From the IMG/VR virus record IMGVR_UViG_3300033179_000006, positions 1 through 31,331 of that record: a stretch of DNA of 31,331 nt, one strand, 5' to 3'. Origin of the DNA: a virus. The notes beneath the pieces were generated by a model. The model worked only from the letters and a program-made list of their open reading frames with translations. It ran no database searches and had not been told where the DNA came from. Made by a program: the position numbers and the translations under genes. The first letter of the stretch is position 1; every line of letters starts with the position of its first letter. This document shows, one piece after another, positions 2,636-19,402 of the stretch.

Positions 2636-3001
2636 ATGAAATCACCCATTATCAAAGGGCAGTTGACCCTCAACTTTGAGCCGGGCCTGACTGAGCGCCA
2701 CCGCTCCCTGCGGGACTGTGTTGCCACCGGGGTCTACCAGCGCGGCCTGACCCGTGTGGCGATCGACTTGGATGTGGCGCCCTCAAATCTCTCCGTGCAG
2801 TTGAGCGAGAGCCCGGAGCGCAAGTTCTCCATCGAGGCCTTCGAGCTTTACCTGGACAAGACCGGTGACCGCACTCCGATCTATTACTTGGTCGAGAAAT
2901 ACTTGGCCGACAAGTCCGTGGTGAAAGAGGCGGCACTCGCGCGCTTGGCGCCGCACCTTGCCGAGTTGATGCCGCTTCTTCAGCAGGCTGGCCTCGTATG
3001 A
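2636..3001 (+). CDS. Phage early regulatory (CII-like position) DNA-binding protein, 121 aa
   Basis: A 121-aa protein with a probable helix-turn-helix at about residues 35-60 (YQRGLTRVAIDLDVAPSNLS). It is followed by a segment (FSIEAFELYLDKTGDRTPIY) typical of phage regulators in this position. The family resemblance is from memory of similar early-region proteins. It lies just downstream of the Cro-like gene and leader, as CII does in lambdoid phages. Its stop overlaps the next ATG (ATGA). Targets are unknown. Confidence 0.6.
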   Translation: MKSPIIKGQLTLNFEPGLTERHRSLRDCVATGVYQRGLTRVAIDLDVAPSNLSVQLSESPERKFSIEAFELYLDKTGDRTPIYYLVEKYLADKSVVKEAALARLAPHLAELMPLLQQAGLV

Positions 3002-3093
3002 AACGCCTCTTCCACCTCCTCCTCGCCATCGCCGCCACGGTCGAATGGCTGTTTACCCCTGAACCCGACCACGACCTCCGGGCGCTTCCATGA
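2998..3093 (+). CDS. 31-aa membrane microprotein
   Basis: A 31-codon frame beginning MKRLFHLLLAIAATVEWLF, a basic start then one hydrophobic helix, ending in an acidic Pro-rich tail. It is joined by ATGA overlaps at both ends to the regulator before it and the RNA ligase after it. That arrangement supports translation of an otherwise easily missed gene. It may anchor in the inner membrane. No function recognised. Confidence 0.55.
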   Translation: MKRLFHLLLAIAATVEWLFTPEPDHDLRALP

Positions 3094-3635
3094 TCGAATT
3101 CGAACCCTTTGCCAAGATCGCGCGCCTGACCCGCGAATGTACCGTCACCGAAAAGATCGATGGCACCAATGCCAGCATCTTCATCGGCGAGGACGGTTCG
3201 TTCCTGGTGGGCTCGCGTACGCGCTGGATCACGCCTGAGGATGACAACTACGGCTTTGCCAAGTGGGCGCATGCGAACCGCGAGGAGTTGGTTAATGGTC
3301 TCGGGATAGGCCATCACTTCGGCGAATGGTGGGGCCAGGGCGTGCAGCGCAACTACTCGCAGACCTCAAAGCGGTTCAGTCTGTTCAATACCTCGAAGTG
3401 GGGCGAGAGTCGCCCTTCTTGTTGCGACGTGGTGCCGGTTCTTTACAACGGCGTCTTTGATGAATTCGGCGTCTGCAAGGGCATCAAGGCCGCGCTCAAG
3501 CAATTGACCGAGCAGGGTAGCGCAGCGGCGCCCGGCTTCATGAAGCCCGAGGGCATCGTGATTTTCCACCATGCCGCGCATCTCTACTTCAAAAAGACGC
3601 TCGACAAAGACGAGGAATGGAAAGGGAAGTCATGA
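3090..3635 (+). CDS. RNA ligase (T4 Rnl2-like nucleotidyltransferase)
   Basis: A 181-aa ATP-dependent RNA ligase-type protein that would seal nicked or broken RNA through a lysyl-AMP intermediate. Motif I is EKIDGTNAS, with the nucleotidyl lysine at Lys22. SRTR (42-45) follows, GEWWGQG (78-84) fits motif III with Glu79, KPEGIVIF (152-159) fits motif IV and YFKKTLD (166-172) fits motif V. The length matches a minimal catalytic domain without a C-terminal module. No polynucleotide kinase or phosphatase partner is adjacent, though a HAD-like protein is encoded at 9697-10188. Repair of tRNA cut by a host anticodon nuclease is a known role of such phage enzymes; here it is inference. Confidence 0.85.
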   Translation: MIEFEPFAKIARLTRECTVTEKIDGTNASIFIGEDGSFLVGSRTRWITPEDDNYGFAKWAHANREELVNGLGIGHHFGEWWGQGVQRNYSQTSKRFSLFNTSKWGESRPSCCDVVPVLYNGVFDEFGVCKGIKAALKQLTEQGSAAAPGFMKPEGIVIFHHAAHLYFKKTLDKDEEWKGKS

Positions 3636-3838
3636 ACCTGTTCCTGCAATACCTGCCGCAAATCCTCGGCTGCATCCTCGCCGCGCTCGCCGCCGGCGGT
3701 CTGGTATGGCTGTGCCACGCCGCCATGATGATGAGCAGCGCGTGCATGGAAGGGCTCACCGCAGTGATGGAGCAGCCGCTGGGGTACTTCGAGCACCCCA
3801 TGCCAAGCGAGAAGCTGCGGCGGGTGCCATTGCAATGA
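3632..3838 (+). CDS. Small single-pass membrane protein, 68 aa
   Basis: I start at ATG 3632, which overlaps the RNA ligase stop (ATGA). The product has a hydrophobic segment at about residues 8-32 (LPQILGCILAALAAGGLVWL) and a mostly polar C-terminal half. It is a probable inner-membrane protein of the early operon. An upstream in-frame ATG at 3617 would add five residues, but the coupled start is preferred. Function unknown. Confidence 0.65.
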   Translation: MNLFLQYLPQILGCILAALAAGGLVWLCHAAMMMSSACMEGLTAVMEQPLGYFEHPMPSEKLRRVPLQ

Positions 3839-4110
3839 AGCGCAATCAGCCAGTCGTCATGCCCGAAGGATGGACGCGGGAAGTGCCCGACTACGCCAAG
3901 AATCATCTGTTCATCGGCTCGCCTGGAGCAGATGGCGGGTTCGTCACCGTGGACTTCACCAACCGCTGTTACCGCTCCGGCATCAACACCGGCCGCACGT
4001 TTCGCCTGGGCGGCATCTATCAGGGTCTCTGCTGGAGACAGCGTCTCGAACAGGACGCGATTGACTGGCTCGCCCGGGTGATGTCGGAACGGGAGACGCG
4101 CACGGCATGA
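3835..4110 (+). CDS. Phage hypothetical protein, 91 aa
   Basis: A soluble 91-aa protein, ATGA-coupled at both ends. It is rich in Trp, Tyr and Gly, with DGGFVTVDFTNRCYRSGI in the middle suggesting a small β-sheet, and a helical C-terminus (QDAIDWLARVM). The frame is open further upstream in the antisense of neighbours, but the coupled ATG is the natural start. No family or function recognised. Confidence 0.7.
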   Translation: MKRNQPVVMPEGWTREVPDYAKNHLFIGSPGADGGFVTVDFTNRCYRSGINTGRTFRLGGIYQGLCWRQRLEQDAIDWLARVMSERETRTA

Positions 4111-5700: not shown

Positions 5701-6387
5701 ATGTCAGGCGACTGGATCAAGATGCGCACCGATCTTCGGCGCAGTCCGCAAGTTGTCCGCATCGCGTCCGCATTGAAAGCGGACAGGCTTCGCATCATTG
5801 GCGCGCTGCATGCCGTTTGGTGCCTTGCAGATGAGCAAACCGAGGACGGTACGCTGGACGCGTACAGCTTTTCCTTGATTGACGAGGAAATCGGCTGGCA
5901 GGGCTTTTGCCAAGCCATGGCCGATGTTGGCTGGATCGAGCAAAACGAAAAAGGCGTTTGTTTTCCGGAGTTTACGAAGCATAACGGGGCCAGTGCGAAG
6001 CGCCGGGCGCAAGAGGCCGACCGCAAAAGAGAGTCCCGAGCGTCCGCATTACCGTCCGCATCAGATGCGGACAAAAAGCGGACCAGAGAAGAGGAGAGAA
6101 GAGAAGATAAAGACACTGAGTCGGCAGGCTTTGATGCCTTCTGGCAGCTTTACCCGAACAAGAAAAGCAAGGGCGCAGCGGAAAAAGCCTGGGCCAAGAT
6201 CAAACCGGACGAGCAGTTGCAAGCCCAGATTTTCGAGGGTGTGCGGCGGGCCAAGACTTCGGTGGACTGGCAAAAGGACGGCGGCCGCTACATCCAGCAC
6301 CCGGCGACCTGGCTGAACGCCAAGGGATGGCTTGATGACACCGAGCCCGGCCTGTTCTCGGGGCAGGTGGAGGGCGCTGCGATATGA
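5701..6387 (+). CDS. Replication initiator / primosomal protein (lambda O or DnaT-like)
   Basis: A 228-aa protein of the phage replication-protein type. The N-terminal part (1-105, starting MSGDWIKMRTDL) looks like a winged-helix DNA-binding domain. Residues 105-140 are a charged linker. The C-terminal part starting FDAFWQLYPNKKSKGAAEKAW, with YIQHPATWLN, is typical of proteins that load DnaB helicase. It probably binds the phage origin and recruits the helicase encoded at 6854-7789. The gene itself contains eight iteron copies (5744-5784 and 6042-6083) and a purine tract, as lambda O contains ori. A GAGGG about 12 bases upstream serves as RBS. Confidence 0.8.
   Translation: MSGDWIKMRTDLRRSPQVVRIASALKADRLRIIGALHAVWCLADEQTEDGTLDAYSFSLIDEEIGWQGFCQAMADVGWIEQNEKGVCFPEFTKHNGASAKRRAQEADRKRESRASALPSASDADKKRTREEERREDKDTESAGFDAFWQLYPNKKSKGAAEKAWAKIKPDEQLQAQIFEGVRRAKTSVDWQKDGGRYIQHPATWLNAKGWLDDTEPGLFSGQVEGAAI
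5744..5784 (+). repeat. Origin iteron cluster 1
   Basis: GTCCGCA at 5744-5750 and GTCCGCAT at 5755-5762 and 5766-5773 are spaced at exactly 11 bp, one helical turn. AAGCGGAC at 5777-5784 is an inverted copy with one mismatch. The three direct copies fall in three different reading frames of the host gene, so selection is on DNA rather than on protein. Confidence 0.8.
6042..6083 (+). repeat. Origin iteron cluster 2
   Basis: GTCCGCAT at 6042-6049 and 6054-6061 is followed by inverted copies ATGCGGAC (6065-6072) and AAGCGGAC (6076-6083), with 11-12 bp spacing. The centre GTCCGCAT-CAG-ATGCGGAC is a perfect 8-bp dyad. The cluster lies in the linker-coding part of the replication gene, directly before a purine-only tract. 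Confidence 0.8.
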
Positions 6388-6866
6388 CGCGTCCCATCGG
6401 CGCCAAGCCCATCTTGGAAATGCGTCTCAACGGGCAACGGCCAGCACTGCCGGTGCTGGTCTCCCTGATCGGCCGCCTGTCGGCGTTCGACGGGCCGCTG
6501 GTGATCGCCGACCCCGAGGTCGCCTACGACTGGACCTTCCTCGCCGGTTTGGAAACGCATGTCTGGCTGCGCGAAGGCGTCGGCGCGCGCCGCACCCTTC
6601 TCGCCCTGGCGGCGCACGAAGCCTCGCTCCTGCAGGTCTGGGATGTGGACCTGAAAAAAGGCGCCTGGGTGATGGCCGACACGCCCGCGGCGGATGCGCG
6701 CATGGAGGAGGCCCTGGAGAAGCGGAACGCCCGCCTGATCCGGTCTACCTGGCAGAAGCGCTACGAGGGCCCCGGGGTGGCCATCTGGCTCTCGCCCTGG
6801 GGTGAAATCATGAACGAAGAATACGCGCGCGGCGCCGCGCACCTGGAGGTTCCATGCAAGTCGTGA
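6384..6866 (+). CDS. Phage hypothetical protein in the replication module, 160 aa
   Basis: A 160-aa soluble protein, ATGA-coupled to the replication gene and overlapping the helicase gene by 13 bases. The segment VLVSLIGRLSAFDGPLVIAD and later EKRNARLIRSTWQKRYEGPG suggest an αβ fold, but I see no catalytic motif. Its position between initiator and helicase suggests a helicase-loading or accessory replication role. That is inference from context. Confidence 0.65.
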   Translation: MTRPIGAKPILEMRLNGQRPALPVLVSLIGRLSAFDGPLVIADPEVAYDWTFLAGLETHVWLREGVGARRTLLALAAHEASLLQVWDVDLKKGAWVMADTPAADARMEEALEKRNARLIRSTWQKRYEGPGVAIWLSPWGEIMNEEYARGAAHLEVPCKS

Positions 6867-7789
6867 AGGATTCCATCGACATCAGCCGCTACATGCAGCC
6901 GGAGGATGATGGAGAAGTCGTGTTTCCTGCGTCGAATTGGCTCGGCGAACACCTCTCCCTGGTCCGATCCGGCGGTGTGATCCGCAAGACCGGCTCGAGG
7001 ATGGGCTGGGCCAAAACCCACGAGTTCTTCCGGTTCGTGCCCGGTGGCGTCAGTTTGTGGCTCGGCATCAGCGGGCACGGCAAAAGTCTGGTCACATCCC
7101 AGGTGCAACTCGACCTGATGATGGCCGATGAACCCTGCGGCCTGGCCTCGCTCGAAATGAAGCCCCTCATGACCCTGGACCGGATGTGCCGGCAGGCTTT
7201 CTGCGGTTCCGATATGGGCGAAGACTTCGTTGAGCGCTTCCACAACTGGACCGATGGCCGGTTCTGGATTTACGACCGCCACGGCAACACGCCTTGGCAG
7301 CGAATCATCGCTTGCGGCCGCTACATGGCCGGCCAAGGGGTGAAGCATTTCTTCGTTGATTCGCTGATGAAGTGCGTCAAGGGCGAGGACGACTACAACG
7401 GGCAGAAAGACTTCGTCGCCGAGATGTGCTCGCTGGCCGAAGAAACCGGCATGCATTGCCACCTCATCCACCACAGCCGGAAGCTGGACGACGAGACCAA
7501 AAAGCCCGGCAAGTTCGACGCCAAGGGCTCCGGCTCCATCACCGACCAGGTCGATAACGTCATCACGACCTGGCGCAACAAGACCAAGGAAAAGCTGCGG
7601 GAATCCGGCAAGGACTACGACCACAAGGCGCCGGATGTCGAACTGATCATCGACAAGCAGCGGCACAACGGTGGATGGGAGGGGAAGTTCCTGTTCTGGT
7701 ACGACGGGAAATCAATGCAGTACCTGCCGAGCCCGCACGCCGAGTTGGTCAAGTACTTCCCGGAATCGTTGGTCGAGGAGCCGATCTGA
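6854..7789 (+). CDS. DnaB-like replicative helicase (RecA-fold ATPase)
   Basis: A 311-aa RecA-fold ATPase. Walker A is GISGHGKS (71-78), the catalytic Glu is in SLEM (99-102), Walker B is HFFVDS (165-170) and a sensor-like HLIHHSRK follows (203-210). The conserved tail GSGSITDQVDNVITTWRN is typical of phage DnaB/KaiC-like helicases. It is shorter than host DnaB and lacks the N-terminal primase-interacting domain. It probably unwinds phage DNA at the fork after loading by the 5701-6387 product. It could alternatively be a recombination ATPase, but the neighbourhood favours replication. Confidence 0.85.
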   Translation: MQVVKDSIDISRYMQPEDDGEVVFPASNWLGEHLSLVRSGGVIRKTGSRMGWAKTHEFFRFVPGGVSLWLGISGHGKSLVTSQVQLDLMMADEPCGLASLEMKPLMTLDRMCRQAFCGSDMGEDFVERFHNWTDGRFWIYDRHGNTPWQRIIACGRYMAGQGVKHFFVDSLMKCVKGEDDYNGQKDFVAEMCSLAEETGMHCHLIHHSRKLDDETKKPGKFDAKGSGSITDQVDNVITTWRNKTKEKLRESGKDYDHKAPDVELIIDKQRHNGGWEGKFLFWYDGKSMQYLPSPHAELVKYFPESLVEEPI

Positions 7790-18484: not shown

Positions 18485-19402
18485 ATGTTCTCGCACATCA
18501 AGCGTTCCCTGATCGCCCGTGGCTACTGGAAGGACCGCGACGAGGAAGACGTCGGCGGCACCGGCGGTGAGGAAGAGGTCGTCGGCGAGGGCAACCCCCA
18601 CGACGACGCCCGCGCCCGGCTTGTCCAGGGCCACGATGAGCGCATGGACGAGGCGAGTGACTTTCGTGACGTTGAAGAAGGCGAACAGGCGGACGTGGCC
18701 GCCGAAGGGGCTGAAGAGGAAGAATCTTCGGCCGCCGAGGAGCCGAAGAAATTCAAGATCAAGGTCAACGGACAGGACGTCGAACTGACCGAGGCCGAAC
18801 TCATCGAGCGCGCGCAGAAAGCCGACGCTGCCGACGAGAAGTTCCAGGAAGCGGCGCGCATGCGTCGCGAAGCCGAAGAATTGCGGGGCGCCGAGGAACG
18901 CCGCCAGCCACCCGAACAGGGCGCTGGTGACGACCTCGATCCCGTGGCGCTTGTCCGCGCCATACAAATGGGCACCGAAGAAGAGGCTGCTGAAGCGTTG
19001 CGAAAGGTCATGAAACAGCGTCCATCCCTTGAGGCCGACGCCAACGTGATCGACGACCGCATCCGCCAAATCCAGGCATTCGAGCGTTACAAGACCGAGT
19101 TTTCGGACATCTTCAACGATCCCGACCTGCAGCAGATGGCCTTCGCGCGAGACCACGCCTTGGTAAAGGCGAAGGACACCAGTTCGTACTGGGATCGGTA
19201 TTCGAAGATCGGCACGGAACTCCGCGCCAAGTTCGGGAAAAAGCCCGATACGGCCGCCGAGGACAAGGTCCAGCGCAAAGCAGAGGTCGTCACGCTGAAA
19301 CGGGCCAACGCCCGGCAGGCGGCGCCGGCCGAACCCGATCAGGAAGAGAGCCCAAGCGCGGTGATCGCCAGCATGGCGAAAGCGCGGGGCCAAACCCAGT
19401 AA
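18485..19402 (+). CDS. Capsid scaffolding protein
   Basis: A 305-aa, highly charged, mostly helical protein: acidic and Glu-rich in the first 100 residues, coiled in the middle (AEEPKKFKIKVNGQDVELTE, then EAELIERAQKADAADE), and basic at the end (EVVTLKRANARQAAPAEPDQ). This composition and the place directly before the major capsid gene are typical of scaffolds that shape the procapsid and then leave. I start at ATG 18485, with GAAGGAG seven bases upstream; an in-frame TTG at 18479 is less likely. Confidence 0.8.
   Translation: MFSHIKRSLIARGYWKDRDEEDVGGTGGEEEVVGEGNPHDDARARLVQGHDERMDEASDFRDVEEGEQADVAAEGAEEEESSAAEEPKKFKIKVNGQDVELTEAELIERAQKADAADEKFQEAARMRREAEELRGAEERRQPPEQGAGDDLDPVALVRAIQMGTEEEAAEALRKVMKQRPSLEADANVIDDRIRQIQAFERYKTEFSDIFNDPDLQQMAFARDHALVKAKDTSSYWDRYSKIGTELRAKFGKKPDTAAEDKVQRKAEVVTLKRANARQAAPAEPDQEESPSAVIASMAKARGQTQ

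Follow-up and report, generated by a model that had tools for sequence, protein, structure and literature searches.

Origins of replication located inside initiator genes are already known in phages. Lambda ori lies in gene O, where iterons bound by the initiator are found mid-gene and an A+T-rich region that opens easily comes after them; downstream of O is the gene for the step of helicase loading (PMC7466680). In phage SPP1, the initiator gene 38 contains oriL, made up of direct repeats together with an unwinding element, and the loader and helicase genes come after it (PMC6316719). For the lactococcal phages Tuc2009 (Rep2009) and TP901-1 (ORF13), the origin lies within the replisome-organizer gene and is bound by the product of this gene (PMC8965321). 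In the RepA/origin modules of the Vibrio PLE satellites, the DNA-binding domain of the initiator covaries with the origin (PMC8263062). The Rac prophage carries an active origin named oriJ (PMC3945230).

The DNA analyzed here, called the window in the following, is a stretch of 31,331 nucleotides that constitutes one complete IMG/VR virus record. The original prediction placed an iteron-based origin inside its replication gene. This is supported by local dyads, sites conserved among relatives, a weak tract, the initiator family to which the product belongs, a helicase gene, and a layout like that of Tuc2009, the Rep of which is annotated as 'contains origin of replication'. We estimate at roughly 86% the probability that gene 5701-6387 encodes a replication initiator and contains the replication origin; binding, opening and replication are inferred from sequence. 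The features are listed in Table 1.

Table 1. Positions in the window of the initiator gene, its iteron sites and neighbouring elements
Feature	Position	Strand	Basis or remark
Replication initiator gene holding the proposed origin	5701..6387	+	ORF and PHROG profile matches
Winged-helix domain, codons 1-92	5701..5976	+	AlphaFold2 model, pLDDT mostly 90-98 over residues 11-90
Weak extra site GTGCGCAT	5722..5729	-	22 bp before cluster 1; exact GTCCGC here in L005 and L113
Cluster 1 iteron GTCCGCAA	5744..5751	+	
Cluster 1 iteron GTCCGCAT, exact	5755..5762	+	Gene nt 55, kept in 44/79 GTCCGC-class relatives
Cluster 1 iteron GTCCGCAT, exact	5766..5773	+	Gene nt 66, kept in 59/79 GTCCGC-class relatives
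Cluster 1 iteron GTCCGCTT	5777..5784	-	Convergent with 5766 site; core at gene nt 79, kept in 58/79 GTCCGC-class relatives
Predicted basic helix, codons 98-115 (R101, E105, K109, S112, R113), candidate specificity helix	5992..6045	+	pLDDT about 70, in both models
Cluster 2 iteron GTCCGCAT, exact	6042..6049	+	
Cluster 2 iteron GTCCGCAT, exact	6054..6061	+	
GTCCGC-N7-GCGGAC dyad of cluster 2	6054-6072		19 bp
Cluster 2 iteron GTCCGCAT, exact	6065..6072	-	Convergent with 6054 site
Cluster 2 iteron GTCCGCTT	6076..6083	-	Ends just before purine tract
Stretch of lowest duplex stability, candidate DNA unwinding element	6081..6149	n/a	Nearest-neighbour profile, lowest 0.2% of window
Purine-only tract AGAGAAGAGGAGAGAAGAGAAGA, proposed unwinding element	6085..6107	+	23 nt, (AGAGA)n-like; encodes REEK-type peptide
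C-terminal domain, codons about 141-215	6121..6345	+	tblastn and partial PHROG matches; exchangeable module in relatives
DnaB-like helicase gene, downstream of initiator	6854..7789	+	Pfam DnaB_C 6e-7, AAA_25 3e-7; PHROG_5482, PHROG_239, PHROG_19

The initiator gene and its repeats

The gene is an open ORF of 687 bp. Its 228-aa product matches two PHROG profiles of replication initiation proteins, PHROG_9474 (E 5.9e-58, residues 3-216) and PHROG_2509 (E 6.9e-55, residues 1-143). A Pfam search with this protein gave no family at E 0.1 or better, Phage_rep_O (the lambda O protein family) included, and the protein is thus not of the lambda O family. The parallel that had been drawn with lambda ori in gene O therefore holds for the layout but not for the protein family. 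The N-terminal phage replisome organiser family (Phage_rep_org_N, PF09681) is not matched by the window protein, and two of 90 relatives match it (best E 2.9e-4). No solved structure similar in sequence to the initiator was found. A fold search with the initiator returned nothing at E < 0.001; RepA_N and DnaD weakly resemble it, among many winged helices. The N-terminal domain aligns with the Rep-DNA complex 5kbj (Z 5.5, rmsd 3.2, 82 aligned) and with DnaD 2vn2 (Z 5.0), and unrelated winged helices score alike. In the AlphaFold2 model, a long charged helix (residues 123-150) precedes the C-terminal domain. The DnaB-like helicase encoded at 6854-7789 is likely loaded at the proposed origin, and the next downstream ORF of at least 180 aa encodes a DnaB-like helicase or a DnaC-like loader in eight of the ten relatives sampled. 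A 160-aa ORF without Pfam or PHROG match is located between the initiator and helicase genes of the window (6384-6866).

All eight GTCCGCAT-like sites of the original prediction are found where it had put them, inside gene 5701-6387. The three direct copies of cluster 1, described as exactly 11 bp apart, do start at this interval, at gene offsets 43, 54 and 65, and hence occupy three reading frames. Likewise present are the cluster 2 dyad and, after it, the purine-only tract of 23 nt. The orientation of the cluster 2 sites is ++--, and the sites at 6042 and 6054 are separated by a step of 12 bp instead of 11. What is conserved is a core, GTCCGC(A), rather than the whole 8-mer. An exhaustive count gave six exact copies of GTCCGCAT in the window, five in the initiator gene and the single other one, noticed before, at 1815. 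GTCCGC occurs 31 times on both strands of the window, and the eight copies in the initiator gene all fall within the two clusters. An equal density elsewhere would have refuted the prediction; this is excluded, as GTCCGC reaches 11.6/kb in the gene versus 0.75/kb elsewhere, about 15-fold lower. Over the whole window the 8-mer with at most one mismatch is not enriched (45 seen versus 38.7 expected), so that the enrichment is purely local to the initiator gene.

The initiator gene was also shuffled among synonymous codons, its protein and codon usage being kept. GTCCGC, with eight copies in the gene, had a mean of 2.9 in the shuffles, and eight or more were reached in 5 of 5000. For GTCCGCA (six copies versus 0.86 expected), the count was reached in none of 5000, and any 6-mer at eight copies was seen in 2 of 1000. 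The claim that protein coding cannot explain the repeats is thus borne out, since synonymous shuffles fall short and three reading frames are occupied.

Conservation of the sites and of the purine tract

Motifs at the start of the protein and at the helix served to retrieve related genes, so that more distant designs are under-sampled. After removal of near-duplicates (90% identity), 191 of the 301 genes collected remained, 182 of them with the helix motif. The linker of these 182 relatives carries GTCCGC (79), GTAACG (59), GTCACG (19), GTCTAC (9; GTAGAC when read in the orientation of the other words) or something else (16). The spacing is common to all four classes: direct sites are 11 bp apart and convergent ones 13 (12 and 14, respectively, in the GTAGAC class), and divergent pairs are at 10, or 11 at most. 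Most often, the distance from the last site to the tract is 2-3, or else 13-14, one more repeat step. A distance of 2 means that one base lies between; this is the case in the window, with the core reaching 6083 and the tract beginning at 6085. Faecalibacterium phage FP_Lagaffe (L350) and Microcystis phage Mae-JY24 (L358) carry repeats that fit none of the four classes. In Mae-JY24 (886-1710), the word AACCGTT occurs four times, with 11-bp spacing in part, and a CCAGAG tandem comes after it.

The same site positions are found in phiPSA1, epsilon15, Klebsiella BUCT711 and IMG/VR loci, at about 45-58% protein identity over the matched part. Loss of the repeats in relatives, which would have spoken against the prediction, is excluded by this persistence, together with conservation at the codon level. 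Frozen cluster 1 codons in the relatives are Ser23 (TCC in 61/61), Ala22 (GCG in 28/28) and Arg29 (AGA or AGG in 46/46), unlike Arg elsewhere, which is mostly CGN. A search for the dyad GTCCGC-N7-GCGGAC in 1.21 Mb from 30 related records gave 48 copies. Of these, 47 are in the initiator gene, for the most part at its nt 66 or around nt 345; the reversed pattern, used as a control, has no copy in the same records. Three records have no dyad, and two of them, the records of L278 and L291, come from relatives whose word is different. Eight of the 18 GTCCGC copies in the epsilon15 sequence examined, and 7 of 27 in that of phiPSA1, fall in the initiator gene. Cluster 1 is absent from one large clade (L009/L012 type), which means that it is not essential in general. 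The sole dyad outside an initiator gene lies at position 19266 in the record of L187 (G025), about 0.8 kb downstream of the gene.

It could be supposed that protein sequence and codon bias produce the repeats incidentally and that these have no function as DNA, and the sites do overlap protein motifs found family-wide (VVRIASAL, SASDAD and REEKRREE). We consider this next to impossible: the copies are in three frames, the codons at the sites are frozen, and in relatives whose amino acids differ there, the layout is filled with other words. Chance or codon usage as the sole cause was ruled out by the synonymous shuffles and the frozen codons.

The purine tract was found in 166 of the 182 relatives, and its first 18 nt read AGAGAAGAGAAGAGAAGA in 116. 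Inside the tract, 402 of 403 Arg codons are AGA, versus 228 of 3188 in the remainder of these genes. In 139 of 165 relatives, the least stable 40-bp segment of the gene starts between -10 and +40, counted from where the tract begins.

GC skew had been suggested as a check. The window shows no turning point at the initiator gene, and this test gives no support for an origin there. Such a result would be in line with the sites being an operator array for the initiator or for another phage regulator, the true origin being elsewhere. Initiators often repress their own genes, and two arrays, one of them near the gene start, would suit autoregulation. However, an operator array could do without a conserved weak tract of purines at a constant distance, the initiator gene is followed by helicase or loader genes, and the same layout in Tuc2009 is a reported origin. 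Autoregulation by cluster 1 would in any case be compatible with an origin in the gene. An operator array with a distant origin thus appears to us very unlikely, and an origin inside the initiator gene remains our preferred reading.

Some related loci differ in the repeats they carry. The initiator genes of L006 and L007 (gene at 3001-3930) are related, with 78% protein identity, and are devoid of the (AGAGA)n tract. The former contains 18 copies of TTCTCGA and the latter 14 copies of TTATCGA in largely corresponding places, some being within a repeat-made wing insertion (LLDS/LIDS peptides). In L010 (1222-2064) and L021 (3001-3888), the winged-helix domain has an insertion of about 24 residues, most of it encoded by GTTACG/CGTAAC copies, as though repeats of the origin had been added within this domain.

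The iteron word and the residues of helix 98-115

The N-terminal columns most informative about the word are 105, 109, 112 and 101, with a corrected mutual information of 1.43, 1.14, 1.05 and 1.04 of 1.63 bits. In sequence order they are i, i+4, i+8 and i+11, i.e. one face of a helix. The signature of GTCCGC is R101, D/E105 and K109; that of GTAACG is T105, V109 and H112; that of GTCACG is A105 and Q/K109; and that of GTAGAC is mostly E101, with K105, Q109 and W112. Word classes and informative columns were derived from the same data, and the helix is itself modelled with no more than moderate confidence. Outside the class-defining set, a Paenibacillus phage with the helix KERKRKSR has six GTCAC linker sites, a number reached in 0 of 2000 shuffles, and a Vibrio phage with the helix ERKRKSR has GTCACA-type sites. 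The C-terminal domains of the relatives form 28 families, which show no correspondence with the word: several word classes are found within the large families.

The tree of the winged helix (residues 1-92 alone), which is weakly supported, has 18 changes of the word, versus about 70 if shuffled. A strict independent-pairs test restricted to well-supported branches gave two pairs, too few to judge, and contrasts were consequently taken on the best tree, whether branches were supported or not. In 17 independent contrasts, the residue matches the word in 100% (105), 99% (109), 92% (101) and 88% (112), the best winged-helix column reaching 67%. That the word tracks these four positions better than the winged-helix columns points to a specificity helix that would have been re-paired with its origin many times. 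Residue 113 probably also changes with the word. T105/V109 helices with R or K at this position go mostly with GTAACG (before TAACG: 238 G, 49 C and 3 A), and those with A or S go with CTAACG (16 C and 2 G). The A/S proteins are few and related to each other, so that few events are represented.

We regard it as rather probable, with ample room for doubt, that in a large family of phage initiators the word is read by a single re-programmable recognition helix located just after the winged helix (residues 101, 105, 109, 112 and 113), and that the word in its own gene is replaced whenever the helix changes, the spacing and the (AGAGA)n tract remaining fixed. Alternatively, the origin is right and specificity resides in the winged helix, helix 98-115 following the word through recombination beside cluster 2. 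The codons of the helix directly adjoin cluster 2, and in the L009/L012 clade, which has no cluster 1, exchange of a helix-plus-cluster-2 cassette would suffice. Joint transfer of the helix and cluster 2 by recombination can explain part of the association. Columns 31, 51, 55 and 59 of the winged helix are also informative, partly because cluster 1 overlaps those codons. However, for neighbours with a winged-helix identity of at most 0.45, the helix predicts the word in 83%, whereas segment 75-94, which is just as close and contains the wing, does so in 20%. A single helix face for the informative positions does not favour the winged helix either. In the clades that have cluster 1, this distant cluster carries the new word too, and winged helices that are 70-83% identical are paired with different words. 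Specificity in the winged helix thus seems unlikely to us, though less so than an operator array, and recognition by helix 98-115 is retained in what follows.

The initiator would bind the iterons through helix 98-115, beside the winged-helix domain. Because of the 11-bp phase, initiator molecules are proposed to align on one DNA face along the array, and convergent site pairs are perhaps bound by dimers. Binding at cluster 2 would strain and open the adjacent purine tract, and a DnaB-like helicase would be loaded on the opened strand, probably via the C-terminal domain. Cluster 1 may provide extra initiator-binding capacity, or it may serve autoregulation of its own gene.

Significance and comparison with known origins

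The origins of this family, its word set and the one-helix correspondence were not found in the openly licensed literature; subscription papers may describe part of this. As far as could be checked, the match between word and helix is undescribed. From the sequence alone, the origin can be predicted precisely in many phages and prophages, such as epsilon15, phiPSA1, Xanthomonas phage CP2 and Rac. The relatives would also constitute a natural series in which specificity changed jointly in initiator and origin, in no fewer than about 17 independent contrasts. Partner switching of an essential protein-site pair could thus be tested with existing natural proteins. This would be a strong case of a DNA signal that dictates the amino-acid sequence of the protein reading that signal. 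If the reading of a re-programmable recognition helix is true, the REEKRREEK-type peptide of these phage replication proteins would be a translated origin element.

The Rac prophage of E. coli K-12 is of particular relevance. Its ydaU gene (L354, 801-1589) carries GTAACGC six times, in two arrays, together with a T/V-type helix and the purine tract AGAGGAAGAGGAAGAGGAAGA. YdaU being a family member, we can predict that oriJ lies in ydaU; no literature placing oriJ within this gene was found.

Compared with lambda, in which the iterons are longer and of different sequence, the window has a purine-repeat tract that is not simply A+T-rich, and a second array in the codons of the winged helix. The repeats of SPP1 are unrelated to those of the window, and SPP1 has a second distant origin, oriR; no such second distant origin was found in the window. 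The layout of the window is also that of Tuc2009 Rep, in which four CAACCA repeats about 11 bp apart in the linker are followed by a purine-rich tandem, and of ORF11 of r1t, a relative of Tuc2009 and TP901-1, where GGAACC occurs four times in the linker at steps of about 11 bp, again before a purine-rich tandem. A word search in ORF13 of TP901-1 did not reveal an 11-bp array. These lactococcal origins differ from the window by their repeat words and by N-terminal domains without detectable Pfam kinship, and, in contrast to the family described here, no re-pairing of word and helix is known for them. Covariation of initiator and origin is shared with the PLE satellites, but there the origin is outside the gene, the iterons are about 30 bp long, and it is the whole domain that changes rather than one helix.
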